Origin: a virus
DNA length: 27,959 bases
IMG/VR virus record: IMGVR_UViG_3300041955_000301
Span: 1-27,959 of that record
Reading direction: 5' to 3' (one strand)
Below, piece by piece: positions 1 to 17,009 of the stretch. Below the pieces are notes generated by a model, which ran no database searches, had not been told where the DNA came from, and saw only the letters and a list, made by a program, of their open reading frames with translations. The first letter of the stretch is position 1; every line of letters begins with the position of its first letter. Made by a program: the position numbers and the translations under genes.

Positions 1-142
1 GCAACAGCGCATGATGCTTATCGGTAATGTCCAAGTCGTGAATGAGCCGGAGCGCATTATTACCGCCGCTGTAGGGCTTAAGGCTTTCGATTGCGCGCAC
101 CACGTCGGGTGCAGAGCTCCCTTCGACCAACTCTCTTATTTT
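1..142 (-). pseudogene. 5'-truncated fragment of a conserved bacterial protein, running off the window edge
   Basis: Read on the minus strand from 142 down to 1, the frame gives KIRELVEGSSAPDVVRAIES and then LKPYSGGNNALRLIHDLDI and TDKHHALL. The pattern of E-x-LKPY-x-GGN-x-AL, a helix, then D-x-x-DKH resembles a widespread family of uncharacterised bacterial proteins, where it lies in the C-terminal half. No ATG or GTG precedes it in frame, and an in-frame TGA lies at 215-217 (minus strand), so the N-terminal half is missing. It is the only leftward, host-like reading in this part, so it may mark the chromosome side of a prophage junction. It could instead be a gene broken by a frameshift near the six-base A run at 140-145. 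Function unknown. Confidence 0.5.
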
Positions 143-315
143 TTGGTCTGGTCTGGGCGTTTCGCTAACGGCTGAAACGCCGTTTCGTGAGCGCTCATAA
201 GTGCCGCCGCCGTTTCAGAGGGCGCCGCTCCAGCCCGCTGCCATACCGGGCGAGCCGCCGCCGGGAAGCGCCGGATTAACAAAAAGGTCAGTATTGCTGA
301 CCATTCTCCTGGCGC

Positions 316-711
316 ATGGAAGCCTCGATTTCCAGCGCGCAGCGTCTGGTCGGCTTCACCGCCGATTTCACCTTCCGGTTTCGCCTGCCGCCGGCGCTGG
401 CGCTGTGCGTCCCGCCCGGCCGCTGGATCGGTCCGTGCATCCATCAGGCGCGGGTCGATGTTGGCGAGGATGCCACCGTCGAGATCCGTGCCTTCAACGG
501 CTCGGAGCTCGAGGCGCGCCGCATCGTCTTCGAACAGACCAAGCGGTTCCTGATCGCTGTCGGCGGCGGCCGGCGCGGATTGCCGGTGGCTAATTTCTCC
601 GGGCGGCTCACCAAGGCGTCGCGGCCGGACCGCTACGAGCATTACGAGATCGTCACTGGCGCCGCACTGTCGATCACCCAGGCCATCATGGCGCCGGCGG
701 TGGTGGCATGA
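316..711 (+). CDS. hypothetical protein, 131 aa
   Basis: An open frame with strong GC third-position bias runs from ATG 316 to TGA 711. The product has no obvious signal peptide or membrane segment and looks beta-rich, with alternating hydrophobic stretches such as GFTADFTFRFRLPP near residue 13 and ARRIVFEQTKRFLIAVGGG near residue 66. I do not recognise the family. There is no clear Shine-Dalgarno before ATG 316, so the start could be wrong. It precedes another rightward hypothetical gene and may belong to an accessory module at the left end of the phage. A 210-residue open frame runs opposite on the minus strand but reads as arginine-rich antisense. Confidence 0.5.
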   Translation: MEASISSAQRLVGFTADFTFRFRLPPALALCVPPGRWIGPCIHQARVDVGEDATVEIRAFNGSELEARRIVFEQTKRFLIAVGGGRRGLPVANFSGRLTKASRPDRYEHYEIVTGAALSITQAIMAPAVVA

Positions 712-815
712 CACCCGTCCCGCGCTGGTGACTCTTTCTTCCGCGGCCTGGCGATCGCCGCCCGCCAACCCGATCGCACGGCCGCGTCATGGGCATCAAA
801 CAGCGCGGAACAACA

Positions 816-1757
816 ATGAACAAACAAAAGTCGCGGCGCGCGAGCAGGGTTGGAGTGGCGGCTGCGAATGCACCGCGGAAAAAAGTCGATATCGAGGAGC
901 TCCTCCGCTGGGCCTATCTCGACGAGCTCAGCAAGCGGCAGACATCGGCCGCCGAGGGCATCTGGGACCGCATGTCGCAATACGGCTCGCTCGGCGGTGT
1001 CAATCCGGACGAAAGCAACTTCGCCGGCGGCGGCGCGCAACGTTACGCGCAATTCGGCCTGCCACATCCCGACGCGGAGGAGATCGAACGAGCCGTCAAT
1101 GCGCTCGGCAAGATCTCGATCGAGCAGGATTTCGACATCATCGTCGGCGAGCTGCGGGCGCTGGTGAGCGTCAACGATCTGCGGCCGCGGCCGAGAGGGC
1201 GCGTACGAGGCCGCACGGCCGAAGCCGGTTATTATGACAAGGATGCGACGCCGCCCCAGGTGCGGCCGCGCGACGTGCTCTTCGTCTCCACCATCAACGT
1301 CACTGCGCTCGTCATCACGCATGCAGTCATGGGGACGCGGCCGAAATGGAAAAGCGGCATGCCGCGGCCGTATCAGATTCCCGGACGGCGCGGGCCGATG
1401 ATCGTCGGCGAATGCCGCAGCAAAAATCTCTACACCGCGGGCTCCTATTGCCCGTTGCGCTGGTCGCCGTCGCCGGCCGAGATCGTACTCGGCCGCGCCG
1501 ATTATCACCTCTGGCATCGCGCGCTCGGCAGCCTGACACAAACGCTTAACCTTACGGAGCACGAGGCGCTGCCGCCGGCGGCGCCGGCCGCACCGTGGCT
1601 CGCGGAACAGAAAAAGCGCGCGGTTTGGTCGCATGTCGTTGGCAAGCCTAAACCTTTGCCGCTCAGACCGCAGCGCAAAAAGGCCGGCGCGCCGACCAAA
1701 AAACCTAGGAATTCCAAGGTGCGAACGGTGCCAGTTGACGAGGGGGCAAAAGCTTGA
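816..1757 (+). CDS. conserved prophage-associated hypothetical protein, 313 aa
   Basis: A soluble protein with a basic N-terminus (MNKQKSRRASR), an acidic helical segment (VDIEELLRWAYLDELSK near residue 25), a central part rich in short hydrophobic stretches, and a basic proline/lysine-rich C-terminal tail. The motif around residues 225-260, with LGRADYHLWHRALGSL followed by a leucine-rich helix and PAAPAAPWL, resembles a family I associate with Rhizobiales prophage-like regions; that is from memory and not checked. No enzymatic motif is visible. ATG 816 is preferred over ATG 789 because nothing resembling a ribosome site precedes 789, though the GCGGAAC before 816 is also weak. The basic ends would suit nucleic-acid binding, which is inference only. 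Confidence 0.65.
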   Translation: MNKQKSRRASRVGVAAANAPRKKVDIEELLRWAYLDELSKRQTSAAEGIWDRMSQYGSLGGVNPDESNFAGGGAQRYAQFGLPHPDAEEIERAVNALGKISIEQDFDIIVGELRALVSVNDLRPRPRGRVRGRTAEAGYYDKDATPPQVRPRDVLFVSTINVTALVITHAVMGTRPKWKSGMPRPYQIPGRRGPMIVGECRSKNLYTAGSYCPLRWSPSPAEIVLGRADYHLWHRALGSLTQTLNLTEHEALPPAAPAAPWLAEQKKRAVWSHVVGKPKPLPLRPQRKKAGAPTKKPRNSKVRTVPVDEGAKA

Positions 1758-1785
1758 CAACGTAGCGAGGCCTGAAAAAGGTTCT

Positions 1786-1830
1786 GAGCCCGCCCGGCGC
1801 CGACGCGCTGCGGCGGGTTTCGCATTTTTT
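1786..1830 (+). terminator. Rho-independent terminator-like hairpin
   Basis: GCCCGCC at 1788-1794 can pair with GGCGGGT at 1812-1818, extended by A-T and G-T pairs, across a GC-rich loop. The T run TTTTTT at 1825-1830 follows after the short spacer TTCGCA. It lies 30 bp after the stop of the 816-1757 gene and fits an intrinsic terminator for that unit. The spacer between stem and T run is longer than ideal. Confidence 0.45.
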
Positions 1831-1901
1831 GGTGGGGAGCCGGCCCATGTGACGCGCGTCGCCACAAAAGCGCTCACCGCGTCGAGCGTGCGCTCGACGA
1901 G

Positions 1902-2141
1902 TTGCGCAGCATGATCCATTTTCTGTCGCCGCCGCTCAATCAGCGGCCGGGGCTATTTCTCGAACAAAAAGACGCGCTCGATCAATTCGTCCTCGGCCTG
2001 CAAAGGCGCATGGGCTTTCAATCGACGTCGCCGACGTCTTTTAGGTCGCCGCAGCGCGACAGCGGAATCGCCGCGATTTGCAGCAAAGGCCGCATCATTC
2101 CGATCCAGCGGCGGCGGATGCTCGCGGACAAACAAACATGA
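1902..2141 (+). CDS. small hypothetical protein, up to 79 aa
   Basis: The frame opens at TTG 1902, with ATG 1911 as an alternative, and ends at TGA 2141. The first 45 residues look coding, with helical and hydrophobic segments (LFLEQKDALDQFVLGLQRRM). The open frame also continues upstream without a stop to about 1851 in coding-like sequence, so the true start is unclear. Its stop overlaps the start of the next micropeptide by ATGA, which supports translation of both. No family recognised. Confidence 0.4.
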   Translation: MRSMIHFLSPPLNQRPGLFLEQKDALDQFVLGLQRRMGFQSTSPTSFRSPQRDSGIAAICSKGRIIPIQRRRMLADKQT

Positions 2142-2230
2142 TAGTGCTCTGGGTCATCGCTTGCTTCGCCGTGTTGCAAGGCATTTTCGCGATCGCGGCT
2201 GAGGAAATGCGATCTTTCTGTTTCCGATAA
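2138..2230 (+). CDS. 30-aa membrane micropeptide
   Basis: ATG 2138 overlaps the preceding stop (ATGA) and runs to TAA 2228-2230. The product begins MIVLWVIACFAVLQGIFAIA and ends with the short tail EEMRSFCFR: a single hydrophobic span of about 20 residues followed by a short charged tail. That layout is typical of phage single-span membrane peptides such as holin-like, lysis-modulating or exclusion peptides. No family can be assigned at this length. Its own ribosome site is weak, so translational coupling to the upstream frame is likely. It is too short for usual gene finders. Confidence 0.4.
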   Translation: MIVLWVIACFAVLQGIFAIAAEEMRSFCFR

Positions 2231-2260
2231 CGGCCGCTTCTCGGAACCAATCAACGGTCA

Positions 2261-2282
2261 CTGTTGACATATAAGTTAACAG
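2261..2282 (+). promoter_or_regulatory. promoter -35 box inside an operator-like inverted repeat
   Basis: CTGTTGAC (2261-2268), a 6-bp spacer, and GTTAACAG (2275-2282) form an inverted repeat with a single mismatch. A consensus -35 hexamer TTGACA (2264-2269) lies inside it. An AT-rich block at 2286-2292 is a poor but correctly placed -10 candidate. A GGAGG ribosome site at 2295-2299 and ATG 2304 follow. The arrangement suits a repressor-controlled promoter for the 2304-2573 gene and possibly the integrase. Confidence 0.45.
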
Positions 2283-2303
2283 CGAATTTTTATCGGAGGT
2301 TTC

Positions 2304-2573
2304 ATGAGTTACGCGTTTGAAGGCTCCTTCCGCACCAAAGAATCGGCCCGGCGCACGGTCATGAAAGACCCCGGCCTGCCGAATGTTGTTCGGGAGGTTT
2401 TGCTCGCCGGAATCATGGCCCTTTCCGATGATACGGATGATCGTTTTTTGTATGTGAGAGCCGTGGGGCATCAAATGGACGGTAGCGGCAGCTATGAGCG
2501 CACAAGTGCGGAATTGCTGATCGAGCCGCGGTACTTCGCGCCAGCTCCTACTTACGGCCGTACGACGGCCTGA
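2304..2573 (+). CDS. hypothetical protein, 89 aa
   Basis: Starts at ATG 2304 behind a strong GGAGG ribosome site with 4-bp spacing. The protein reads as an N-terminal alpha/beta region with a helix (GLPNVVREVLLAGIMALSDD near residues 27-46) and then a beta-rich second half containing VRAVGHQMDGSGSYERTSAE and a final strand ELLIEPRYF. The shape resembles small phage or accessory proteins whose last half carries a G-H...S-x-x-x-A-x-L-x-I pattern, but I cannot name a family. Its base composition is less GC-rich than the structural genes. It sits alone between a palindromic promoter and the integrase leader, so a role in regulation is possible but unproven. Confidence 0.6.
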   Translation: MSYAFEGSFRTKESARRTVMKDPGLPNVVREVLLAGIMALSDDTDDRFLYVRAVGHQMDGSGSYERTSAELLIEPRYFAPAPTYGRTTA

Positions 2574-2583
2574 GCCGGGGTAA

Positions 2584-2661
2584 GTGGCCCATGCGGATCT
2601 GCCGGTCGTCCTCGATCTGGGGGGTCAACCCCAACTTGATTTGGGGTTAACCCCAACATGA
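2584..2661 (+). CDS. possible 25-codon leader ORF coupled to the integrase
   Basis: GTG 2584 opens a 25-codon frame containing ADLPVVLDLGGQPQLDLGL. Its TGA at 2659-2661 overlaps the integrase ATG 2658 as ATGA. It spans both palindromes in front of the integrase, so its translation would disrupt those hairpins. It may equally be an accident of the 16-bp duplication of the integrase N-terminal coding sequence. No good ribosome site precedes it. Confidence 0.25.
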   Translation: MAHADLPVVLDLGGQPQLDLGLTPT

Positions 2662-2684
2662 ACGATAAGGATCTGCCGGTCGTC
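2595..2684 (+). repeat. 16-bp direct repeat flanking the integrase start
   Basis: GGATCTGCCGGTCGTC occurs at 2595-2610 and again at 2669-2684, 74 bp apart. Each copy is followed by a two-base difference and then CGATC. The second copy encodes DLPVV at the integrase N-terminus; the first lies in the possible leader ORF and encodes the same residues. This looks like a small tandem duplication enclosing the palindromes. Confidence 0.85.
2621..2656 (+). promoter_or_regulatory. palindrome cluster upstream of the integrase start
   Basis: TTGGGGTTAACCCCAA at 2641-2656 is a perfect 16-bp palindrome. GGGGTCAACCCC at 2621-2632 is a near copy. In addition AACCCCAA (2627-2634) can pair with TTGGGGTT (2641-2648) across a 6-base loop. 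The structures are mutually exclusive in RNA and end 1 bp before the integrase ATG at 2658. As DNA they look like two operator sites; as RNA they could hide the start. Confidence 0.55.
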
Positions 2685-3695
2685 ACCGATCGGCCGGTCC
2701 CGATCGCCGAGACCACGGACGTACTGGCTCGGCGATCAACCAATCCGGCGCCGGCGCTCGCCGAAGCGCTGCGATCGGCGACTAATTATGCCGCAGCTTC
2801 CAAATCTGAGGCCACGCGACGCGCTTATCGTGCTGATTGGGCGGATTTCGCCCGATGGTGCGACGGCCTTGGCCTATGTCCGCTGCCAGCGGCGCCGACG
2901 ACTCTCGCTACTTACCTCGCGCAGCTTGCCGACGCCGGGAAAAAAGTCTCGACGATCAGGCGGCGCCTGGCTGCGATAGCGTATGCTCACAAACTCAAAG
3001 GCTTAGTCCCGCCCAGCGATGCTGAGACGGTCCGCGCGGTGCTCTCGGGCATCCGCCGCAAGATCGGTGTCGCCGTGACGCGCAAGGCGCCGGCGACGGC
3101 GCAGACTTTGAGCGCGATGCTGAGCAAGCATTCCGCTCAGTTTAACGAAGATGTTAACGCGAAAAACCTGCGCCCCCTTCGCGACCGCGCGCTGATGCTG
3201 CTGGGATTTGCCGCGGCGCTGCGCCGGAGCGAGCTCGTCGCCCTCGACGTCACTGATCTCGAATTCACCGATCGCGGCGTCATCGTCGCCATCCGCGCCT
3301 CGAAAACCGACCAGGACGGCGAAGGCGCCTTCGTCGCCGTGCCGAACGGCCGCAAGCTCAAGCCGGTCGCGGCGCTGCGCGCCTGGCTCGAGGCCGCGGT
3401 GATCGCCGAGGGCCCCGTCTTCCGCTCAATCGACAAAGGCGGTCGAATCGGTAGCCGGCTCACCGACCGCTCGGTGGCGACAATCGTCAAGCATTACGCG
3501 GCGGCCGCCGGATTTGATGACGCGATCTATTCCGGACATTCGATGCGCGCGGGGTTTGTTACCTCGGCGCTCGAGCGCGGCGCCGACTTCTTCTCGGTGA
3601 TGCGTGTCACCCGCCATCGCGACGTCGATACGCTTCGTACCTATGACCGCCGCGCCGGGCTGTTCAAGGATCACGCCGGGAAGGATTTTCTCTAA
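2658..3695 (+). CDS. int: tyrosine site-specific recombinase (phage integrase), 345 aa
   Basis: Catalyses integration and excision by cutting and rejoining attachment sites through a tyrosine-DNA intermediate. The N-terminal core-binding domain (about residues 45-140) is a SAM-like helical bundle with TRRAYRADWADFARWC. The catalytic domain holds the expected residues: Arg189 in LRRSEL, Lys216 in RASKTDQ, His294 and Arg297 in SGHSMRAG, His320 in TRHRD, and nucleophile Tyr329 in LRTYDRR. Length is normal for the family and all catalytic residues are present, so it should be active. ATG 2658 has no good ribosome site and sits behind palindromes and a possible leader ORF, suggesting controlled translation. 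Its TAA overlaps the next gene's ATG (TAATG). It is unusual in reading directly into the packaging genes. Confidence 0.94.
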   Translation: MNDKDLPVVTDRPVPIAETTDVLARRSTNPAPALAEALRSATNYAAASKSEATRRAYRADWADFARWCDGLGLCPLPAAPTTLATYLAQLADAGKKVSTIRRRLAAIAYAHKLKGLVPPSDAETVRAVLSGIRRKIGVAVTRKAPATAQTLSAMLSKHSAQFNEDVNAKNLRPLRDRALMLLGFAAALRRSELVALDVTDLEFTDRGVIVAIRASKTDQDGEGAFVAVPNGRKLKPVAALRAWLEAAVIAEGPVFRSIDKGGRIGSRLTDRSVATIVKHYAAAAGFDDAIYSGHSMRAGFVTSALERGADFFSVMRVTRHRDVDTLRTYDRRAGLFKDHAGKDFL

Positions 3696-3889
3696 TGGGC
3701 TGCGGCTGCGCCGAACGCAAACAGGCGATCGTCATCGCCGCCGGCGCCGCATTCCGCGGCGATGTCGAAACGGTCAAGCGCGAAGTCGCGTTTGTCGGCC
3801 GATCGGCGCTGGAAGATGCGCGCGCGATCGCGCAGCGGGCGCAGCTCGCACGCGTAGCGCTGGCGCACAGGATGGCGGCGCGGCGGTGA
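3695..3889 (+). CDS. small hypothetical phage protein, 64 aa
   Basis: ATG 3695 overlaps the integrase stop and the gene ends by overlapping the next GTG (GTGA). It begins MGCGCAERKQ and continues as mostly alanine- and arginine-rich helix with no membrane span. Short proteins starting with a Cys-Gly-Cys motif are common beside head genes in alphaproteobacterial phages, but I know of no function. The tight overlaps on both sides are the main support that it is translated. Confidence 0.55.
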   Translation: MGCGCAERKQAIVIAAGAAFRGDVETVKREVAFVGRSALEDARAIAQRAQLARVALAHRMAARR

Positions 3890-4467
3890 AGACTTCGCAC
3901 GATTTCGGACTGTTCACGCTCGACGTCCGCGCCGACTTCGAGGAAATGGCGCAGCGATTGCGCACGGTCGGCAACCAGGCGCCGCATGTCATACGCCGCG
4001 CGATCAATCGCGTCGGCGACAAGGCGCGCACCAAGGTCGTGCGCGCGCTGGTCAAGCAAACCGGCGCGAAGTACGGCACGGTGCGGCGCGCGCTGAAGAT
4101 CAGGCGCGCCAATTATGGCGAGCTGGCCTATCGCATCGTCGGCTTCGGCGGCTTCCTGCCGCTCTCGGCATTTTCGGCGCGCCAGCGCAAGGACGGCGTC
4201 TCGGCGGCGCCGTGGGGCACGCGGCGCGTGTTTAAGCAGGCATTTATATCCCCCTCCCTCGGCGGCCATGTCTTCGTCCGTGAAGTGCACGGAGGGTCGC
4301 GTGTCGGCCGATTGCCAATCAGAGAGCTATTCGGGCCTGCCATTCCCCGCGAGCTGCTCAAGGATGATGTGAAGGCGACCTTCGAGTCGACCGTCGCCGC
4401 CGAGCTGCCCGTCGCGGCCGAGCGCGAGCTCGGCGCCTTGCTCTCCGGCTTCGCTCCGCGCGGCTGA
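3886..4467 (+). CDS. minor tail protein Z-like (lambda gpZ family), 193 aa
   Basis: Start GTG 3886 overlaps the upstream TGA; the open frame extends further upstream but only as antisense-like sequence through the integrase end. Residues 10-75 carry the gpZ-family pattern: an N-terminal strand (LFTLDVRADFEEM), then PHVIRRAINRVGDKARTKVV and LVKQTGAKYGTVRRALKIR. Lambda gpZ acts at the head-proximal end of the tail so that finished tails join productively. The middle (LPLSAFSARQ, then WGTRRVFKQAF) matches the beta-rich middle of that family. Its place upstream of the terminase genes is unusual, since tail-completion genes normally follow the head genes. Beside a Mu-type tail it may serve as a general head-tail or neck factor. 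Confidence 0.72.
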   Translation: MKTSHDFGLFTLDVRADFEEMAQRLRTVGNQAPHVIRRAINRVGDKARTKVVRALVKQTGAKYGTVRRALKIRRANYGELAYRIVGFGGFLPLSAFSARQRKDGVSAAPWGTRRVFKQAFISPSLGGHVFVREVHGGSRVGRLPIRELFGPAIPRELLKDDVKATFESTVAAELPVAAERELGALLSGFAPRG

Positions 4468-4620
4468 TGCCCGCTACCGGAACCACATCCGCGGCCGGAT
4501 GGTCGCCCCGCCGGCGGCGCAACCGGCCGAGGGCGGCGGGTCCTTCCTGGCGGGGTACCCCCGCGCTGGCGCGGCAGGTCGAAAAAGCAGTAGCTGATCT
4601 CGAAAAATCCTGGGTCAACG

Positions 4621-5289
4621 GTGTCAACGGTGCAAGTCGCTGGATCGGCGACAGCCGCCGCTGCGCCGCAGCTTTTGTCGCTCTCGGAATTGGCGCGGAC
4701 GCGGAAGCGCGACAAGGCGCTGATCTCGCGCCAGGTCAAAAAACTCGTCGCCGCCGGCAAGCTCAAGATCCGCGACGGCGAGCGCGGCGAGAAGCTGATT
4801 GATCCAGCCGAGTTCGCTCGAGCACTTGGCGAGATCGTCGATCCGACGAAAGTGCAGGCGGCCGCCACAGCGCGCCATTTCCGTGCGGCGGCCGCGCCGC
4901 AGCCGCCTGACGCAAGCTCGCCGCCCGAGCCGACGTTCAGCGCGGCGCAGCTGCAGAAAATCCATTTCGAGGCCGAGCTGAAAAAGCTCGACCTCGCCGA
5001 GCGCCGCGGCCTGGTCGTGCCGATCGCCGACGTCATCGCGGCTTTGCGCGAAGCGGGCGATGCGGCAGTGCAACTGATCGACCGGCTGCCGTTGCGCTCC
5101 GCGGATCTCGTGGAAGCCGTCGGCAGCAACGGCGAAGCCGGCGTCCGGGCGCTGCTCAAGGCAATCGCGTTTGAGCTGCGCAGCGGCCTGGCCGAGGCCT
5201 TCGCCAAGCTCGAGGTGCGAGGCAAAACCGAGGAGGCAGCCGGCCCGCTTGTCGCGGATCTGCCCGACCAGGCGAAGGAGGCACCGTGA
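4621..5289 (+). CDS. terS: terminase small subunit / DNA-packaging protein (Nu1-like), 222 aa
   Basis: Recognises phage DNA and hands it to the large terminase. Residues 18-50 form a winged-helix DNA-binding segment (LLSLSELARTRKRDKALISR, then VKKLVAAGKLKI), as in lambda Nu1-type proteins. A proline-rich linker and a helical region (residues 105-205) for oligomerisation and large-subunit contact follow. The gene precedes and overlaps the large terminase (GTGA). In-frame stops end at 4593, and GTG 4621 and GTG 4630 are both possible starts inside a 9-bp tandem repeat (4614-4631); no clear ribosome site precedes either. At 222 residues it is somewhat longer than lambda Nu1 (181). Confidence 0.75.
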   Translation: MSTVQVAGSATAAAAPQLLSLSELARTRKRDKALISRQVKKLVAAGKLKIRDGERGEKLIDPAEFARALGEIVDPTKVQAAATARHFRAAAAPQPPDASSPPEPTFSAAQLQKIHFEAELKKLDLAERRGLVVPIADVIAALREAGDAAVQLIDRLPLRSADLVEAVGSNGEAGVRALLKAIAFELRSGLAEAFAKLEVRGKTEEAAGPLVADLPDQAKEAP

Positions 5290-7235
5290 GGCTCGCCTAC
5301 ACCCACTCCGCGCGCGCCATCGTCGGCGGCACGCTCTCCGCCCACGTCGCGCCGTCGGTGCCGATCGCGCCGTCCGTCTGGGCGGCCGAATACGCGGTGC
5401 TGCCGGATGGTGAATATGCCGGCGAGAAGATCGATCTGCGCCGCACGCCGCACATCGTCGAGCCGCTCGACATGCTCGGGCTGGACACAGTGAACGAAAT
5501 CGCGGTGATGAAGTCGGGGCAGACCGCCTTCACCACCATGTATCTCTGCGCGATCGGCTACTCGATCGACCGCGATCCCTGCGACATGGTGGTGGTGCAG
5601 CCGACCGACGTCGCGCTGCGCAAATTCAATTCGATCAAGCTCAATCGCTTTATCGAGCGCACCGCGCCGCTGCGCGAAAAGGTCTATCCGCAATCGTCGC
5701 GCTCGGCCACCGGCTCGACCACGTACGAGAAGAAGTTCCCGCGCGGCTCGCTGTCGTTGTTGCTCGCTTCGTCGCCGGCTAACCTGCGTATGCTCACGGC
5801 GAAGAAGGCATTCTGCGACGAGGTCGACGAATACGAGGACGATCTCGAAGGCCAAGGCGATCCGCTTTCGCTGGTCGCCCGCGGGCAGAAATCGTTCAAG
5901 GCCTCGGGCACCTGGAAGCGCGCCTACGTCTCGACGCCGGTCATTCAGGACGCCTCGAAGATCGAGGAGAAGCACGCCGCCGGCGATCAGCGCCGCTGGC
6001 ATGTCGAATGTCCGCAGTGCCAGTCGCGCATCGTGCTCGAGTGGAATGCGCCCTACGATCCTTCGACGCGCGGGCTCAAGTTCAAGAAAACCTTTCCGCA
6101 CCAGGCTCATTACGTCGCGCAGTGCTGCGGCGGCATCATCGAGAGCGCGCAGAAGATCGCAGTCTACCGCACCGGCCGCTGGCAAGCGACCGCGCCGGGC
6201 CCGGGCAAATATCCGTCCTATCACTTCGACGAACTGTCGGCGCCGTTCTCCACCTGGGACGGCATTGCCGCGGATTACGTCGTCGCCGGCAACGACCCGG
6301 CCAAGCTGAAGACCTTCTGGAACCTCACGCTGGGTTTACCCTTCAACGTCGCCGTCGATGCGCCGGACTACGAGCTGCTGATGCAGCGGCGCGAGGATTA
6401 TCCGCCCGAGGTGATTCCGCCCGGTGCGCTCCTCGTCAACGTCTCGGCCGACGTGCAGATGCGCGGCATCTATGTCGAGGTGGTGGCGTTCGCACCCGAT
6501 CAGCAGAGCTGGACCATCTTCGCCGACTATCTCGACGGCTCGACCACCGAGGTCGACGCCGGCGCCTTCGCCGAGCTCACCAAGCTCTACGAGCGCGAAT
6601 GGCCCGACACCAACGGCCGCAAATTCCGCGCCGACGAGTTCCTGATCGACTCCGGATATCGCACCGACGTCGTCTACGAATGGACGCGGCGGCATCCCGG
6701 CACCAGGGCGACCAAGGGCGACGACGGCTGGTCGAAAGTGCCGCTCGGCATCGCCACCGACCAGGACATCGATTACCGCGGCCGCAAGATCAAAGGCGGC
6801 GCCAAGCTCCGCCTGATGGGCACTTGGCCGCTGAAATCGAAATTCTATACCTACGCGGCGCTGATGCCGATCGCCGACGGCGCCGGCCTCACGTTTCCAC
6901 CTGGCTTCTGCCACTTCGGCCGCTTCCTCGACGAGAACTATTTCAAGCAGATCACCTCGGAATATCTCGAGGACGGTGTCTTCCGCGGCCGCAAGCGCAA
7001 GACCTGGAAGCAGCGGCCGCACCGCGACAATCACTTCCTCGACTGCCGCGTTGGCAACATCGCCGGCGCGCACGCCTATTTCACGAGCTTCAAGGCCGAC
7101 GATTGGGCCGCGCGCGCGATCGAGCGGGGCGTGAGCGCCGAGGAGCTACCGGCGGAGGCGCCGGCGCCGGCGGCAAATGCGGGCGAACAAAAAAGCTATT
7201 TCGAGCAGCTCGCGTCATTGAACAAGGGGCTGTGA
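5286..7235 (+). CDS. terL: terminase large subunit (lambda GpA family), 649 aa
   Basis: ATP-driven packaging motor and nuclease that cuts concatemeric DNA and loads it through the portal. The N-terminal ATPase shows a degenerate Walker A (MKSGQTAFTT, residues 75-84), typical of GpA proteins, and a Walker B (KKAFCDEVDEY, Asp178-Glu179). A zinc-finger-like set, Cys242/Cys245 and Cys280/Cys281, lies between the domains. The nuclease domain begins at VSADVQMRGIYVEVV (Asp389) and includes DEFLIDSGYRTD and a late HRDNHFLDCRVGN motif. Length is normal for the family. Start GTG 5286 overlaps the small-subunit stop. The family predicts cos-type ends, but the cos site is not identifiable by eye. Confidence 0.96.
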   Translation: MRLAYTHSARAIVGGTLSAHVAPSVPIAPSVWAAEYAVLPDGEYAGEKIDLRRTPHIVEPLDMLGLDTVNEIAVMKSGQTAFTTMYLCAIGYSIDRDPCDMVVVQPTDVALRKFNSIKLNRFIERTAPLREKVYPQSSRSATGSTTYEKKFPRGSLSLLLASSPANLRMLTAKKAFCDEVDEYEDDLEGQGDPLSLVARGQKSFKASGTWKRAYVSTPVIQDASKIEEKHAAGDQRRWHVECPQCQSRIVLEWNAPYDPSTRGLKFKKTFPHQAHYVAQCCGGIIESAQKIAVYRTGRWQATAPGPGKYPSYHFDELSAPFSTWDGIAADYVVAGNDPAKLKTFWNLTLGLPFNVAVDAPDYELLMQRREDYPPEVIPPGALLVNVSADVQMRGIYVEVVAFAPDQQSWTIFADYLDGSTTEVDAGAFAELTKLYEREWPDTNGRKFRADEFLIDSGYRTDVVYEWTRRHPGTRATKGDDGWSKVPLGIATDQDIDYRGRKIKGGAKLRLMGTWPLKSKFYTYAALMPIADGAGLTFPPGFCHFGRFLDENYFKQITSEYLEDGVFRGRKRKTWKQRPHRDNHFLDCRVGNIAGAHAYFTSFKADDWAARAIERGVSAEELPAEAPAPAANAGEQKSYFEQLASLNKGL

Positions 7236-7236
7236 G

Positions 7237-7548
7237 CTAAAGCGCGACGCCAGTCAGTCCGAGCCTGGCCAGTTCATCCTTCTCGATCTCAACTTGGTCG
7301 AGCACGCACTCCCAGTTTTTGCCCATCTCCGTGACACACTCGTTCAGCGTGTGCCGATGGCACGGGTCAATCAGCGTGTGCCGATGGCACGGGTCAACAA
7401 TTGCATGAATGTGAGCGAGGCCTGGATCATTGACCACGCGCGAATGGACGATCGGCGCGCTACGAGTCGGCGTGAGCACCGCCGGCGCGGCGACGACGCA
7501 GGTGCCGAGCCCCTGCAACAAATTGCGGCGGGATATTGTAAAGGCCAT
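7237..7548 (-). CDS. Tat-exported protein with DPxHxH repeats and a portal-like C-terminus, 103 aa
   Basis: The only well-supported complete minus-strand gene, with a good AGAGGTG ribosome site 5 bp before its ATG at 7548-7546. Residues 5-23 form a twin-arginine signal: ISRRNLLQGL with Arg7-Arg8, a hydrophobic stretch, and a possible cleavage after APA (21-23). Residues 40-69 hold VNDPGLAHIHAIV and then two exact copies of DPCHRHTL, a Cys/His-rich 9-residue repeat. Residues 67-98 (containing NWECVLDQVEIEKDELARLG) match the portal C-terminus (portal residues 495-526) at 16 of 32 positions without gaps. It lies between terL and the gpW gene, which normally adjoin, so it looks like an inserted accessory gene (moron). 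Metal binding and export are inferred; the function is unknown. Confidence 0.75.
   Translation of the reverse strand: MAFTISRRNLLQGLGTCVVAAPAVLTPTRSAPIVHSRVVNDPGLAHIHAIVDPCHRHTLIDPCHRHTLNECVTEMGKNWECVLDQVEIEKDELARLGLTGVAL
7344..7397 (+). repeat. perfect 27-bp tandem duplication in the Tat-protein gene
   Basis: The 27-bp unit at 7344-7370 is repeated without mismatch at 7371-7397. On the minus strand each unit encodes the 9-residue block around DPCHRHTL. The lack of any difference points to a recent duplication or ongoing copy-number change. Confidence 0.95.
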
Positions 7549-7583
7549 TGATCACCTCTCAAGAGCGTCGCGGGGATTATAGC

Positions 7584-7811
7584 ATGAACCTGATCCCGCC
7601 GCACGAGGTTGCCGAGCGCTTACGCCAGGCGGAGCTAGCGCTGCATCGGCTGCAGATCGGCGAGGCCTTTGTCAGCGTACGCCTCTCCGACGGCTCGGCC
7701 ACCGAGTTCACGCCGCCCAAGATCAACGAGCTGCGCGCTTACGTCGATCTGCTGCGCGACCAGCTTCGCGGCCGCGATCGGCGCCGCGGCGCCATCAACG
7801 TGGTGTTTTGA
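7584..7811 (+). CDS. head-tail joining protein, gpW-like, 75 aa
   Basis: In lambda, gpW seals packaged heads below the portal and prepares them for tail attachment. The protein has an N-terminal helix (HEVAERLRQAELALHRLQIG), a beta-hairpin ending in the typical GSATEFTPPKINELRAYVDL, a second helix and a basic tail (GRDRRRGAI); lambda gpW has the same size and order (68 aa). ATG 7584 has a GGGGA site 7 bp upstream. Together with the portal gene downstream it matches the lambda W-B order, apart from the inserted Tat gene on its left and one small gene on its right. Confidence 0.82.
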   Translation: MNLIPPHEVAERLRQAELALHRLQIGEAFVSVRLSDGSATEFTPPKINELRAYVDLLRDQLRGRDRRRGAINVVF

Positions 7812-7812
7812 C

Positions 7813-8046
7813 ATGACGCGCAAAGAACGCCGGGCACTTGAGCGCGAGCGCAATGCACCGCCGCGGCCGCCGCAGGCAGAGCGTGCCGGGGAAACCATCG
7901 AACTGCTCTCCTCTCCTCCCGATGCCGGCCTTTATCCGGCGTTCGAGCGGGACATGCGCGCAAAGCTTGCCGAGGCATTCGGTGGCGGCTTGGCCGTCAT
8001 CCGGCGCACATATAACGAGCATGGCGAACTGGTCAGCGGGAGTTAG
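7813..8046 (+). CDS. small hypothetical protein between gpW and portal, 77 aa
   Basis: ATG 7813 follows the gpW stop by 1 bp. A very basic N-terminus (MTRKERRALERERNAPPRPP) leads to a short helical domain containing LYPAFERDMRAKLAEAFGGG and a final beta-like VIRRTYNEHGELV. No family recognised. The tight spacing supports it as a member of the head operon, perhaps a portal or packaging accessory. Confidence 0.6.
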   Translation: MTRKERRALERERNAPPRPPQAERAGETIELLSSPPDAGLYPAFERDMRAKLAEAFGGGLAVIRRTYNEHGELVSGS

Positions 8047-8052
8047 AGACCC

Positions 8053-9735
8053 GTGAGCGCTTCGCCTGCTCCGATCCAGCCCTCATCAGGCCTGAGTCTT
8101 TGGGGGCGCATGCGCGCCCGCATCGACACGCTCTGGGGCCCGACCGAGACCACCGAGCGCCCGGAGGGCGCCTTCCCGGCGGTCTACAAGGGCGCCAGCC
8201 TCGACTATCAGGAAACCTACGCCTGGCGGCCGCCGCTCACCTCGGCCGAGAGCGCGACCCTCTACGACCGCATCTGGGCCAACAGCCGCGCCGACGATCT
8301 CGCGCGCAACAATCCGCATGCCGCCGCCGGCATCATGCGGCTGGTCGACATGCTGGTCGGCGCCGGCATCCGGCTGGCGCCGCGGCCCGATGCCCACGCG
8401 CTCGGCGTCGATACCGCAAACCGCTCCGGCCGCGACATCATCAAAAAACTCGCCGCCTCGCTCAAGAGCGAGTGGGCGCTGTTCGCCAACGATCCGCGGC
8501 GCTTCGCCGACGCGCAGCGGCGCTATTCTCTCAATACGCTGTTCCGCCTGCAGGCGCGCACGACGGTGCGCCGCGGTGAGAGCACCGCTTATCTGACCTG
8601 GAAACCGCATCCGGCGGCACGCTATGCCACCTGCCTGCGCGTGATCGATCCCGACCGGCTCTGCAATCCGCTCGGCCAGGCCGACACGCTCTGGCTGCGC
8701 GGCGGCATCTCCTATGACGACGATGGCGTGCCGACGCAGTACCACGTCCGCAACGGCCATCCATCGGATTGGTTCCGCTTCGCCCAGCTCCTGAAGTGGA
8801 CGACGATCCCGCGCACTACCGAATCGGGCCGGCCGGTCTTCGTCCACGCCATGGAGCCGGACCGCGAGGACCAGTCGCGCGCCATCACGCCGTTCGCGGC
8901 GCTGATGACCGGCTTGCGCATGATCGGCAAGTTCGCCGAGACCGAGATTGCCACCGCGACGACGAATGCATTGTTCGCCGCCTTCGTGCATTCCAACCTG
9001 CCGGTTGCCGACGCGACGCAGGCGTTCACGGCGCAGGCCACCACCTTCGCCGACAAGCGGCATCATTACTGGCAGCAGAATCCGGCCCGATTGAACGGCG
9101 TGCGCATCCCGGTGATGCCGATCGGCGACGAGATCAAACTCAACACCGCGCCGCGGCAGACCACCGCTTTTGCCGCCTTCGAGACGGCATTTCTGCGCGC
9201 CATCGCTTCCGCGCTCGGCCTGTCCTACGAGCAGCTGGCGATGGACTGGACGAAGACGAATTATTCGTCCGCGCGCGCGGCGCTCAACGAGGTCTGGCGC
9301 CACATCGAATCGCTGTTCTCATCGTTCGTCGAGCAGGTCGTGGCGCCGGTCTATTACGCGGTGATCGAAGAGGCCTTCGACAAGGGCTACATCACCGCAC
9401 CTGCCGGCGCCCCGGATTTCTGGGATGTTCCCGGCGCCTATCTGTGCGCCCGCTGGATCGGCCCGTCGCGCGGCTACGTCGATCCGGTCAAGGAGGCGCA
9501 GGCCGCCGGCATCCGCATGGATCAGCTCACGTCCACGCTCGAGGCGGAATGCGCGCTCGCCGGCGAGGACTGGCTCGACGTGCTCGACCAGGCGGCGATC
9601 GAGAAAGATGAGCTCGGCGCGCGCGGCCTGATGCGCGCCATCTCCGCGCCCGGACGCATTGCGACAGACCCGAGCGACGATCCCGACGGCACGCCGGCGC
9701 CGGAAGACGTCACCAATGAGAAGCAAGCGGCATGA
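8053..9735 (+). CDS. portal protein (lambda gpB family), 560 aa
   Basis: Forms the dodecameric ring at one capsid vertex through which DNA enters and leaves and to which the tail attaches. Family features in order: an N-terminal helix, RADDLARNNPHAAAGIMRLV (about residues 80-99), the wing and stem region with WTTIPRTTESGRPVFVHAME, MTGLRMIGKFAETEIATATT near residue 285, and MDWTKTNYSSARAALNEVW (about residues 397-415). The C-terminus (495-526) carries the VLDQ...IEKDEL motif that recurs in the Tat protein. GTG 8053 is the only sensible start after the previous gene. The TGA overlaps the protease ATG. Length is usual. Confidence 0.96.
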   Translation: MSASPAPIQPSSGLSLWGRMRARIDTLWGPTETTERPEGAFPAVYKGASLDYQETYAWRPPLTSAESATLYDRIWANSRADDLARNNPHAAAGIMRLVDMLVGAGIRLAPRPDAHALGVDTANRSGRDIIKKLAASLKSEWALFANDPRRFADAQRRYSLNTLFRLQARTTVRRGESTAYLTWKPHPAARYATCLRVIDPDRLCNPLGQADTLWLRGGISYDDDGVPTQYHVRNGHPSDWFRFAQLLKWTTIPRTTESGRPVFVHAMEPDREDQSRAITPFAALMTGLRMIGKFAETEIATATTNALFAAFVHSNLPVADATQAFTAQATTFADKRHHYWQQNPARLNGVRIPVMPIGDEIKLNTAPRQTTAFAAFETAFLRAIASALGLSYEQLAMDWTKTNYSSARAALNEVWRHIESLFSSFVEQVVAPVYYAVIEEAFDKGYITAPAGAPDFWDVPGAYLCARWIGPSRGYVDPVKEAQAAGIRMDQLTSTLEAECALAGEDWLDVLDQAAIEKDELGARGLMRAISAPGRIATDPSDDPDGTPAPEDVTNEKQAA

Positions 9736-10658
9736 ACTTCCGTCATCCCCGCATCGCCGCGCGCATCTTCAATACGCCGCTGATGGTCGACGCCGGAAAG
9801 GCGGTGGCCATCGTCGCCGGCATGGGCGGCCGGCTCATTGATGGCCAGCTCGTCATCGACGGCCCGGCCGCAATCGACCATGTCGCCTTCTCAGGCGGGC
9901 GTCCTTCAGAAAAGATGGGCCGGCTCGGCGATCCGATGGGAACGGCGGCCGAGGCGAGGGGCTACGGCGACGACCTTTTGACCAGGTTTGGATCGGTCGC
10001 GGTGATCGCGATCGAGGGCACGCTCGTCCACAAGGGCGCCTGGCTGGACAGCAATTCCGGCGAGACCTCCTACGAGGGCATCCAGACGCAAGTGCTGCGC
10101 GCGGCGCGCGACGAGCGCGTGCGCGGCGTCGTCTTCGAGGTCGATTCCTTCGGCGGCGAGGCCGCCGGCGCCTTCGATACCGCGGACATGATCGCCGAGC
10201 TCTCGGCAGTCAAGCCGACGGTCGCCATTCTCACCGATTTCGCGCTCTCCGGCGGCTATCTGCTCGCCGCCGCGGCGCGGCAGATCGTGCTGCCGGAGAA
10301 CGGTTATGCCGGCTCGATCGGCGTCATCTCCATGCATGTCGATTTCTCGCGCGCGATCGAGAACGACGGCGTGCGCGTCACCGTGCTCACCTCCGGCGCG
10401 CGCAAAGACGACGGCTCGCCGTTCAAGCCGCTCGGCGCCGACGTCGCCGCGCGCTGGCAGGCGGATCTCGACGAGGGCCGCGAACAGTTCGCAACGGCGG
10501 TCGCCAGATATCGCGGCCGCCGGCTGTCGAAGAGCGCTGCGCTCGCCACGGAGGCCGGCGTCTTCCGCGGCGAGAACGCCGTCGAGGCCGGGCTCACTGA
10601 CGGCGTGGTGCGGCCGAGCATGGCCTTTGCCGAATTCGTCCAGCGCGTGAATCGCTGA
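9732..10658 (+). CDS. S49-family capsid protease (lambda gpC-like), 308 aa
   Basis: A serine protease that processes the portal, scaffold or itself during head maturation. The SppA-type Ser/Lys dyad is visible: Ser173 in DFALSGGYLLAAAA and Lys225 in TSGARKDDGSPF. The oxyanion-side GVVFEVDSFGGEAAG (residues 132-146) is also present. The first 90 residues form the extension common in phage members. Lambda gpC carries its scaffold as a nested C-terminal product; here the gene stops at 308 residues and a separate gene downstream is the scaffold candidate. ATG 9732 overlaps the portal stop (ATGA). Confidence 0.94.
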   Translation: MNFRHPRIAARIFNTPLMVDAGKAVAIVAGMGGRLIDGQLVIDGPAAIDHVAFSGGRPSEKMGRLGDPMGTAAEARGYGDDLLTRFGSVAVIAIEGTLVHKGAWLDSNSGETSYEGIQTQVLRAARDERVRGVVFEVDSFGGEAAGAFDTADMIAELSAVKPTVAILTDFALSGGYLLAAAARQIVLPENGYAGSIGVISMHVDFSRAIENDGVRVTVLTSGARKDDGSPFKPLGADVAARWQADLDEGREQFATAVARYRGRRLSKSAALATEAGVFRGENAVEAGLTDGVVRPSMAFAEFVQRVNR

Positions 10659-10692
10659 AGCTTTTTCTCTTCTCAAAAACCTGGAGAACATC

Positions 10693-11178
10693 ATGGACGC
10701 GAATTCCCGCGGTCTCGCCGCCATTGCTACTGCTGCCGATAGCGGCTCGCATGAATCCGGCACGGTGCTCATCACCGGCGCCGGCAAGCTCAAAATCGGT
10801 TTCAGTCCAGAGGAGCATGCCGCCGCGCTCCTCGAGGCGAAAACCGAGGGCAAGAAGGAAGGCACCGTCGCCGCGGCGACCGGCGAGCGAGCGCGCATTG
10901 CCGCGATCGTCAACGCGCCGGAGGCCAAGGGCCGCGAGGGCCTGGCCAATCATCTCGCCTTCAGCACCGAGCTCGCCCCAGCCGCGGCGATCGAGATGCT
11001 CAAGGCCGCGCCGGTTGCCGCGCCGGAGAAGACCTCGCGGCTCGATGGCAAGGTGCCGACGCCGAAGGTCGACGCCGTCGAAAGCGGCGCCCAGCGCGAC
11101 CGCGCCGCGGGCCTGTCGGCCGCGGTGGTCCATCAGCTCGAGAAGATCGGCAAGAAGCCGCTCGCCCGCACCGCCTGA
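10693..11178 (+). CDS. putative scaffolding / capsid-assembly protein, 161 aa
   Basis: ATG 10693 has a GGAG site 6 bp upstream. The product is hydrophilic, alanine-rich and mostly helical (SPEEHAAALLEAKTEGKKEG, then ATGERARIAAIV), with a flexible, lysine/proline-containing second half. That composition and its place between the S49 protease and the decoration gene fit a scaffold, as in other lambda-head phages where Nu3 lies at the end of gene C. The sequence itself is not diagnostic; it could also be a capsid fibre or a protease pro-segment. The short gap from the protease and the good ribosome site suggest strong independent translation. Confidence 0.55.
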   Translation: MDANSRGLAAIATAADSGSHESGTVLITGAGKLKIGFSPEEHAAALLEAKTEGKKEGTVAAATGERARIAAIVNAPEAKGREGLANHLAFSTELAPAAAIEMLKAAPVAAPEKTSRLDGKVPTPKVDAVESGAQRDRAAGLSAAVVHQLEKIGKKPLARTA

Positions 11179-11217
11179 TTTCCAGCCGGCCCGCGCTCGC
11201 GCGTGCCGCCCACCACA

Positions 11218-11249
11218 ACCCGCACTCGCGCGGGTCCCTTGATTGGAGC
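11218..11249 (+). promoter_or_regulatory. hairpin leader before the decoration gene
   Basis: ACCCGC (11218-11223) and GCGGGT (11230-11235) form a perfect 6-bp stem around ACTCGC. The ribosome site TTGGAGCT (11243-11250) follows directly. The same layout and much of the same sequence recur before the capsid gene at 12291-12324. There is no T run, so it is not a terminator; it may stabilise the message or insulate the ribosome site. Confidence 0.5.
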
Positions 11250-11254
11250 TTTCC

Positions 11255-12217
11255 ATGGCCCTCTTCACCGAGACCAAATTCCGCCAAACGCTGCAGACGG
11301 CGTTCCTCAAGTGGTTCGCCGCCGAGGAGATTTCCTTCGAGCAGGAGACCGCGGCGCCGAACTGCGCGGCTAATCCGCCGCCGTCGCCCTCAAGCGGACA
11401 ATCGAATCCGGGCCTGCTCGATATCGGCACCGTCATGAGCCGCATTATCATCGGCGGCGGCACGCCGGCGGCTGCGGTCGCCAATGGCGGCAATACCGGC
11501 GACGGCACCGTCGGCACGGTGACGGCGCAGACCGGCGAGCAGGTTGGGACTTACACCGTCAGCTTCACCGCCGCGACCGCGTTCAACGTCTACGATCCGA
11601 AGGGCGCGCTGGTCGGCTCCGGCACGACCGGCACGGCATTTGCTAACCAGATCGGCTTCACCATCACCGCCGGTGGGACCGCCTTCGTCGCCGGCGACAG
11701 CTTCACCATCGCGGTACCGCCGGGCAGCTATACGGCCAATGCCGGCAATACCGGCAACGGCACCTGTGGCGCGGTGACGGCAAAAGCGGGCTGCCAAGCC
11801 GGCACCTATACCGGCGAGTTCTACGCGGCCACCAAGTTCAGCCTTTACGATCCTTCCGGCAGGTTTGTCGGCGAGGGCACGACTGGCACGGCCTTCTCCA
11901 ACCAGATCGGCTTCACCATCACCGCCGGTGGCACCGCCTTCGTCCTCAGTGATGGCTTCTCCGTCGCGGTACAGACCGGTTCCGGCAATGTGACGCCGCT
12001 CAATCCGTCTGCCGTCGATGGTTCCGCAGTCGCCGTCGGCGTCGTCGTCAGGCCGCAGACCGTGCCGGCGGCCGCGACCGCCACGGTGGTGCTCGCCGAG
12101 CGGCTCGTCGTCGGCCTGCTCGATTATCTGATCTGGCCCGCCGGCATCACCTCGACCCAGCAGGCCGCGGCGCTCGCTCAGCTCGCCGCCAATTACGTCA
12201 TCTGCCGGCCCAGCTGA
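11255..12217 (+). CDS. head decoration protein (lambda gpD-like) with a duplicated inserted domain, 320 aa
   Basis: Binds the outside of the expanded capsid and stabilises it. The decoration-like core is split: residues 1-70 (ending in GLLDIGTVMSRI) and 245-315 (SAVAVGVVVRPQTV, then LVVGLLDYLIWPAGI). Between them are two tandem copies of a beta-sandwich-like module, about 79-156 and 164-240. Each reads roughly NTG-x-GT, GTYT, F-x-AAT-x-F, YDP-x-G, GTTGTAF-x-NQIGFTITAGGTAF, then D-x-F. At about 320 residues it is around three times lambda gpD (110 aa), and the inserts account for the difference. ATG 11255 is chosen over the in-frame ATG 11243 because of TTGGAGCT just upstream. Confidence 0.86.
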   Translation: MALFTETKFRQTLQTAFLKWFAAEEISFEQETAAPNCAANPPPSPSSGQSNPGLLDIGTVMSRIIIGGGTPAAAVANGGNTGDGTVGTVTAQTGEQVGTYTVSFTAATAFNVYDPKGALVGSGTTGTAFANQIGFTITAGGTAFVAGDSFTIAVPPGSYTANAGNTGNGTCGAVTAKAGCQAGTYTGEFYAATKFSLYDPSGRFVGEGTTGTAFSNQIGFTITAGGTAFVLSDGFSVAVQTGSGNVTPLNPSAVDGSAVAVGVVVRPQTVPAAATATVVLAERLVVGLLDYLIWPAGITSTQQAAALAQLAANYVICRPS

Positions 12218-12226
12218 TCTTTGTTT

Positions 12227-12316
12227 GGCCCGCTCGCCGGGCCGATCGCGCGTTTACGCGCGGGAAACGCGCTGTCGCCACACCCAACCCGCCCGCTCGC
12301 GGGCCCTATTGGAGCT
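12227..12316 (+). promoter_or_regulatory. three hairpins in the capsid-gene leader
   Basis: GGCCCG/CGGGCC (12227-12243) and CGCGCG-TTTA-CGCGCG (12247-12262) form tight hairpins. A third, GCCCGC-TC-GCGGGC (12291-12304), stands immediately before the ribosome site TTGGAGCTAGC (12309-12319). The last part repeats the leader before the decoration gene. No T run follows. These may set the high level of capsid translation or mark RNA processing. Confidence 0.5.
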
Positions 12317-12324
12317 AGCTTCCC

Positions 12325-13383
12325 ATGGCCGAAGACCTCAGTCTGATTTTTCCCTACACTCATACGCAGCTGACCGAGCGGATCGAAGTCATCCCGCCGC
12401 TCTACGGGCTCCTCGCCGAGCTCGACCTGTTTCAGAGCGAGGGCTCGATTTCGCGCATTGTCGAGATGCGCTACGAGGAGCACGTCCTGCGCGTGCTGCC
12501 GGCCAAGGAGCGCGGCGCTCCGGCGACGCCGGCGCTGCCGCGCTCGAGCAAGACCATCTTCGTTGAGGTGCCGCACTTCCCCGAGCTCGACCTGATCACG
12601 CCCCAGGATATTCAGGACATCCTGATCCAGATGCAGGACGTGAAACGGCTCACCACCGTCGAGGAGGAAGTCTCCAAGCGGCTGATGGACATCAAGTTCA
12701 ATCACGACATCACCCGCGAATGGCTGCGCTGCCAAGCGCTGCAGGGCAACCTCATCGATGGCAATTCGCAGAGCCTGCTCAATCTCTACAGCGTGTTCGG
12801 CGTATCGCCGACGACGGTTGATTTCGTGCTCGGCACCACCACCACCGACATGAACGCCAAGTGCGCGGCGGTCTGGCAAGCGATCACCACCAACCTGCGC
12901 GGCGAGGTGATGACCGGCATCGAAGCCATCGTCGATCCGACCTTCTTCGAGCGCTTCGTCACTCATACGAACGTGCTGCAATACTATCTGAACGCCGAGC
13001 AGGCGATCATGCTGGCGATGCTGGTGCGCAAGGAGAGCCAGGGCAATATGTGGGGCCGCGAGTTTCAGTTCGGCCGTATCCTGTTCCGCGAATATTACGG
13101 CACCGCGCCAATCAAAACCTCGCCGACGGCGACGACGTTGACCAATCAGGCGTTCTGGGGGGCCAACACCGGCACGGCATATCCGCGCGGCACCCGCAAG
13201 ATGTTCCGCACCTACAATGCGCCGGCGCACGATCTACGCTTCGTCAACACCAAGGGCAATGAGATCTACGTCTCGCCGCACATCAAGGATCACGGCGAAG
13301 GCATCGAGCTCAAGTCGGAGTCGAACCCGCTGCCGATCTGCCGCCGGCCGGAAGCGCTGGTACAGCTGATCAGCTCGAACTGA
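12325..13383 (+). CDS. major capsid protein (lambda gpE family), 352 aa
   Basis: Builds the icosahedral shell in the HK97 fold. Recognisable family blocks are the N-terminal LTERIEVIPPLYGLLAELDL, EVPHFPELDLITPQDIQDIL (residues 86-105), the spine helix VEEEVSKRLMDIKFNHDITR, DPTFFERFVTHTNVLQYYLN in the central domain, and the C-terminal ELKSESNPLPICRRPEALVQ. Length matches lambda gpE (341 aa). ATG 12325 has TTGGAGCT upstream. It follows the decoration gene, as lambda E follows D. Confidence 0.95.
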   Translation: MAEDLSLIFPYTHTQLTERIEVIPPLYGLLAELDLFQSEGSISRIVEMRYEEHVLRVLPAKERGAPATPALPRSSKTIFVEVPHFPELDLITPQDIQDILIQMQDVKRLTTVEEEVSKRLMDIKFNHDITREWLRCQALQGNLIDGNSQSLLNLYSVFGVSPTTVDFVLGTTTTDMNAKCAAVWQAITTNLRGEVMTGIEAIVDPTFFERFVTHTNVLQYYLNAEQAIMLAMLVRKESQGNMWGREFQFGRILFREYYGTAPIKTSPTATTLTNQAFWGANTGTAYPRGTRKMFRTYNAPAHDLRFVNTKGNEIYVSPHIKDHGEGIELKSESNPLPICRRPEALVQLISSN

Positions 13384-16935: not shown

Positions 16936-16962
16936 ATCTGAACGCCTCGAGCTGGCTCCAAT

Positions 16963-17009
16963 TCGCTCTCGCGCGAGCGGGTTGGTGGGCGGCGCGAGCG
17001 CGAGAGCGA
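16963..17009 (+). promoter_or_regulatory. long hairpin directly before the tail-tube ribosome site
   Basis: TCGCTCTCGCGC (16963-16974) pairs perfectly over 12 bp with GCGCGAGAGCGA (16998-17009) across a 23-base loop. The right arm ends at the GAGG ribosome site (17008-17011) of the tube gene at 17019. No T run follows. It could tune the ratio of tube to sheath or protect the message. Confidence 0.55.

Follow-up and report, generated by a model that had tools for sequence, protein, structure and literature searches.

A leftward gene with a predicted Tat signal, inserted between terL and gpW of a probably temperate phage and carrying fibre-like and portal-like modules

The window (the whole stretch of DNA that was analysed) is a virus record of 27,959 nucleotides from IMG/VR. 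It contains an integrase-like gene followed by terS, terL, gpW, portal, protease, sheath, baseplate, and tail-fibre genes, all on the + strand. The presence of the integrase-like gene suggests a temperate lifestyle. The closer terL relatives that reside within bacterial genomes are those of Xanthobacteraceae, Methylovirgula, and Rhodopseudomonas MAGs, and the host was therefore placed near Hyphomicrobiales. In other words, the phage is probably temperate, contractile-tailed, and Hyphomicrobiales-infecting. A single short ORF running leftward separates terL from gpW. The layout of this locus, and of the other genes to which it was compared, is as follows:

2658..3695, + strand: integrase-like tyrosine-recombinase gene (Pfam Phage_integrase, E 5e-15; PHROG 1, E 1e-18)
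3681..3691, no strand: site at which sister phages carry a Tat + DPCHxH gene of their own (370-bp insertion), absent from the window; located by comparison with a 53-kb sister
5286..7235, + strand: terL, terminase large subunit of the GpA family (Pfam GpA_ATPase, E 3e-56; GpA_nuclease, E 2e-58)
7236..7583, no strand: inserted stretch of 348 bp from the terL stop to the gpW ATG
7237..7548, - strand: ORF for an accessory protein with a predicted Tat signal (P0001), 103 aa, ATG start
7255..7341, - strand: portal-like tail of P0001, residues 70-98, ECVTEMGKNWECVLDQVEIEKDELARLGL
7342..7446, - strand: Cys/His repeat block of P0001, residues about 35-69, HSRVVNDPGLAHIHAIVDPCHRHTLIDPCHRHTLN
7462..7548, - strand: predicted Tat signal of P0001, residues about 1-29, MAFTISRRNLLQGLGTCVVAAPAVLTPTR
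7551..7558, - strand: Shine-Dalgarno sequence, GAGGTGAT
7576..7584, - strand: extended -10 promoter-like element, TGCTATAAT
7584..7811, + strand: gpW-like head-tail joining protein (Pfam gpW, E 1.5e-9; PHROG 75)
8053..9735, + strand: portal protein (Pfam Phage_portal_2, E 8e-87), whose C-terminus at 9547-9633 resembles the tail of P0001
26588..27907, + strand: tail fibre/collar-like protein (PHROG 8763, E 1e-37; PHROG 8469, E 1e-25) with DPGHxH repeats in the 27545-27658 region

The 103-aa product of the leftward ORF is MAFTISRRNLLQGLGTCVVAAPAVLTPTRSAPIVHSRVVNDPGLAHIHAIVDPCHRHTLIDPCHRHTLNECVTEMGKNWECVLDQVEIEKDELARLGLTGVAL. The initial annotation had described a leftward gene with its own ribosome site splitting terL from gpW, and this description was confirmed: the ORF lies between the terL stop codon (7233-7235) and the gpW ATG, and the Shine-Dalgarno sequence is directly upstream of its own ATG. 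Positions 5-12422 of the window recur with 100% identity in a 12,418-bp contig of a second IMG/VR record, so the ORF cannot be put down to a single faulty assembly. Its codon usage, like that of the Tat gene of the sister phages, matches the phage type weakly; for the ORF in the window, this fits a foreign origin and is no positive proof of coding. An AlphaFold single-chain model of the protein was uninformative (mean pLDDT 35). Searches of P0001 against Pfam, PHROGs, and NCBIfam returned no family other than fibre-type repeats, and the region had no match in Rfam. An identity as an IS200/Y1 HUH transposase was rejected, as Y1_Tnp scored 15.8 against a 23-bit cut-off with its profile matched in part only.

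The ORF is an insertion, because the terL-gpW gap of 348 bp in the window shrinks to 3 bp in six sister contigs (L007, L008, L009, L010, L012, and L022). The terL search of viral contigs retrieved sister relatives at 94-95% protein identity. The flanking DNA resembles the sister up to 7237 and again from 7605, a position inside gpW. Consequently, the first codons of gpW also differ, and the recombination may extend into gpW. No repeat suggestive of a transposon was noticed at the insertion. The G+C content of the insert is 59.8% versus 65% for the genome, which falls in the lowest 9% of windows of the genome. A gpW search for a donor lineage returned the same phages only. The other terL-portal gaps in relatives contained no Tat ORF, and different genes were inserted in some of them. 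A more distant relative (L024, 7206-8259) has two other genes between terL and gpW, one of them a ParA-like P-loop ATPase as judged by eye. Thus, the terL-gpW junction accepts insertions elsewhere too.

Other parts of the window also invite comparison with the sister phages. The ORF starting at 7814, downstream of gpW, is unlike the sisters in its middle (window 7854-7992) and matches them at its ends, a case of local mosaicism. Another variable site is window 2268-2620 (ORF 2304-2573), in place of which the sister phages have a different 720-bp segment. Window 22967-23791 and sister g5rc 9690-10432 represent a non-homologous gene replacement of similar length, and the sister version bears DPSHTHG/DPGHTHG fibre-type repeats. 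Two 238-bp direct tandem copies that are 76% identical (window 11480-11717 and 11735-11972) lie inside ORF 11243-12217 and form an internal domain duplication in a head-region protein; the sister phages have it too. Also common to the sister phages are two alike, structured GC-rich stretches of ~50 nt in opposite orientation (window 12267-12319 on the + strand and 16950-17002 on the - strand), neither of which matched Rfam.

The sister phages possess a second gene with a Tat-type leader and a DPCHxH motif. The main comparison genome was the 53-kb sister (G005), which looks circular because its ends overlap. Its Tat ORF, MIARRKFIQSLLPGAAALVAAAAIARLPASPETEWMTHAKARAELGITDPDYTHTIIDPCHQHPWAFSIDTQSAFSKGIA, is on the + strand; it follows the integrase-like gene, and its stop overlaps the start codon of the gene after it. 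The sisters carrying this gene are about 90% identical to the window at the nucleotide level, and the copies of the gene across sister contigs are identical in DNA. The sister insert has a G+C content of 55.9% versus 64.6% for the genome (lowest 3% of windows). The ORF encodes a leader with RRKFIQ and a DPxxxHT-IDPCHxH pair, and it is preceded by the Shine-Dalgarno sequence AAGGAGG and, upstream, TGCTATATA. The sister protein matches P0001 with a HMMER E of 2e-6 (34% over residues 5-67). The two proteins have little in common beyond the RR and the DPxHxH pair, and the sister protein has no portal-like tail. The gene at the 3681-3691 site therefore indicates that this kind of gene recurs in the phage group, in another place and in another orientation. 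The idea raised with the initial annotation that homologues might always lie antisense in head operons does not hold, since the sister gene reads in the sense direction next to the integrase-like gene.

On the minus strand, read 5' to 3', the promoter-like element and then the Shine-Dalgarno sequence precede the ATG of the leftward ORF. TATAAT begins 33 nt before this ATG and is present in one copy in the window (both strands), inside the element. TGCTATA is likewise present in one copy in the window (both strands; 0.35 expected by shuffling) and in one copy in the 53-kb sister genome, and both copies are located about 30-36 nt upstream of the respective Tat gene start. For the sole copy to land in one particular 30-nt slot on a set strand, the chance is 5e-4 for the window and 3e-4 for the sister; the arrangement was noticed post hoc. 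When the fetched loci were all scanned for the element followed by a Shine-Dalgarno sequence and an ORF, the two Tat genes were the only convincing matches. The extended -10 has no evident -35 box beside it. Judging from the sequence match, the element would be the ORF's own promoter. Together with the empty site in the sisters, the ribosome site, and the second sister Tat gene, this element bears out the earlier claim that an accessory gene was inserted in the packaging operon. The element also points into the 3' end of terL, and a scan near the ORF found no terminator in between, so the cassette could act through its leftward transcript, an antisense RNA lowering terL expression in lysogeny, with the protein being incidental. 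However, the sister gene is elsewhere and in sense orientation, and an antisense RNA would leave the shared Tat and DPCHxH protein pattern unexplained; this role is considered highly improbable.

A strict Tat rule was applied that called for RR within 35 residues, hydrophobic residues at +3/+4, 13 or more uncharged residues, and a hydrophobic core. In the window, 1 of 170 ORFs of at least 60 aa passed, namely the leftward ORF. The sister genome gave 2 passes among 349 ORFs, the sister's own Tat gene and one that is lipoprotein-like by eye. The RR signal seen in the initial annotation is thus retained as the sole strict-rule pass in the window, with a score in the generic NCBIfam Tat model TIGR01409 that is below the cut-off (13.2 versus 16.7 bits, E 0.092). 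This sub-threshold score is one reason to ask whether the leader might instead belong to the ordinary Sec pathway or anchor the protein in the membrane. Others are the lack of a classic AxA site in the c-region and the replacement of F by L in the Tat motif. However, the RR is correctly placed in P0001, the sister gene has RRKFIQ, and the Tat-target model TIGR02811 gave an E of 0.0019, though likewise below its cut-off. A Sec signal or an anchor is accordingly viewed as unlikely, and, as far as the leader can tell, P0001 probably leaves the cytoplasm through the host Tat system. Tat commonly exports folded, often cofactor-loaded proteins, so a metal-binding protein is compatible with this route.

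The Cys/His block of P0001 matches the window's own tail fibre and phage tail-fibre families. The BLASTP match to the window's fibre has an E of 5e-11, a value that composition bias inflates, and a 9-residue period is seen in both proteins. The match to PHROG 8469 (tail fibre) has an E of 5e-5, which composition bias may also inflate. The likeness of the block to the fibre at the DNA level was not above chance (score 28 versus 31 for shuffles); hence a fibre origin of the block is a matter of protein similarity only. The block includes a 27-bp near-exact tandem repeat. The known counterparts are the HxH repeats of T4 gp37, R-pyocin fibres, and collar-type DPGHxH proteins, with which P0001 shares DPxHxH and the 9-residue period, its best match being the fibre of the window itself. 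Unlike them, P0001 has Cys in place of Gly (DPCHxH), stops at 2-3 repeats, lacks fibre domains, and begins with a Tat-type leader. HxH motifs of phage fibres and spikes bind iron via the histidines of three chains (PMC6116203; PMC11705849). By analogy, the DPCHxH of P0001 is probably a cysteine-containing version of the motif with which tail fibres bind iron, and the protein probably folds around a metal held by its DPCHxH/HxH repeats.

The C-terminal end of P0001 resembles a different virion protein. Its residues 70-98 are 55% identical to the C-terminus of the window's own portal (BLASTP E 4e-6), and a 53-nt DNA alignment of the ORF to the 3' end of the portal gene scored 46, whereas the best of 1000 shuffles scored 35. 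All three modules named in the initial annotation, the RR signal, the Cys/His repeats, and the portal-like C-terminus, were thereby recovered at the protein level, the last of them at the DNA level too. In comparison with the lambda-family portals (Phage_portal_2), P0001 has the ~29 C-terminal residues but not the portal core. Pfam likewise found neither a portal core nor a fibre domain in P0001, and the portal likeness is confined to the 29 C-terminal residues. By domain content, P0001 is neither a portal nor a tail fibre. No clear role suggests itself for the portal-like tail.

A DNA search of 2.9 million viral contigs for DPx[HY]xH-x3-DPCHxH returned 6 contigs, all from this phage lineage: five sister contigs and one identical to the window. 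The DPCHxH DNA pattern had 14 matches in 297 genomes from the order of a Rhodopseudomonas MAG, none of them in a Tat-like short ORF, and these matches are read as chance. A search with P0001 of 199 genomes from the family of a Xanthobacteraceae MAG returned nothing, nor did a search with a two-row profile of 397 genomes of the order, neither set having a positive-control genome. In phage records and plasmids, P0001 matched tail fibres only. An alphaproteobacterial family of Tat proteins, APAIVRASSLMPV, was not found in phage records.

Confinement to one lineage, a chimeric build from pieces that look like virion genes, a recent 27-bp tandem duplication, and weak codon usage are all features expected of recombination debris. 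In that case, the ORF would be a chance or newborn one, produced by illegitimate joining of a fibre repeat and a portal end behind a hydrophobic leader, and P0001 would have no function. On the other hand, the ORF is intact and is accompanied by an extended -10 and a Shine-Dalgarno sequence, and a separate sister gene shares the promoter-like element, the Tat signal, and the DPCHxH pair. A functionless P0001 is therefore judged to be an unlikely outcome.

The genomic pattern of the ORF resembles that of phage morons. It is an extra gene that separates two genes lying side by side in relatives, has its own promoter-like element, is antisense to the late operon, is lower in G+C than the genome, and varies among close relatives. 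A prophage gene that is antisense to lytic genes and has its own promoter is characteristic of moron loci (PMC7067206). The ORF differs from morons in that no terminator was found, in that its product is assembled from virion-like pieces, and in its predicted Tat export; a literature search that was not exhaustive found neither a precedent for such export among phage morons nor a description of a phage-encoded Tat-exported cargo gene. In a looser usage, a moron is an independently transcribed, acquired accessory gene for which a terminator is not required (PMC7067206; PMC6469090), and the term is used here for the genomic pattern of the ORF because this usage needs no terminator. The explanation preferred here, with reasonable though not strong confidence, is that ORF 7237-7548 is a moron, a prophage cargo gene with transcription of its own, and that it encodes a periplasmic protein that is predicted to be exported by Tat and probably binds metal. 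In this view, recombination would have placed a small accessory gene at the terL-gpW junction of a temperate phage. Its leftward transcription would start from its own extended -10 promoter and not from the late operon, making expression possible in the lysogen. The product would be sent out by the host Tat system and fold around metal in the DPCHxH/HxH repeats, and a protein placed in the periplasm or membrane in this way would most likely alter the lysogen.

How might such a protein alter the lysogen? A tentative first guess from the sequence is exclusion of related phages or some other interference with their entry. Known superinfection-exclusion proteins (P22 SieA, Cor, and Ltp) are, like P0001 by prediction only, small prophage-encoded envelope proteins. 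They differ from it in that SieA is an inner-membrane protein, Ltp is a lipoprotein, and Cor inactivates the FhuA receptor. A second and rather less likely guess is that P0001 handles metal for the host, as a periplasmic protein for iron, copper, or zinc handling or for stress that has nothing to do with other phages. The Cys/His-rich repeats, the iron binding of fibre HxH motifs, and the cofactor-loaded cargo commonly carried by Tat fit this role. However, it is hard to see what the portal-like tail would do in metal handling, and no bacterial homologue was found with P0001 in the 199 family genomes or with the two-row profile in the 397 order genomes. A more elaborate proposal is a class of Tat-exported cargo that mimics the virion, in which metal-loaded fibre-type needle repeats and a portal tail in the lysogen envelope would block related phages by mimicry; this proposal is speculative and quite improbable.

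The presence of two separate Tat and DPCHxH genes, with the same promoter-like element but at different sites and in different orientations, suggests that these phages repeatedly need an exported protein that binds metal. If this is true, virion modules would be reused as exported proteins.
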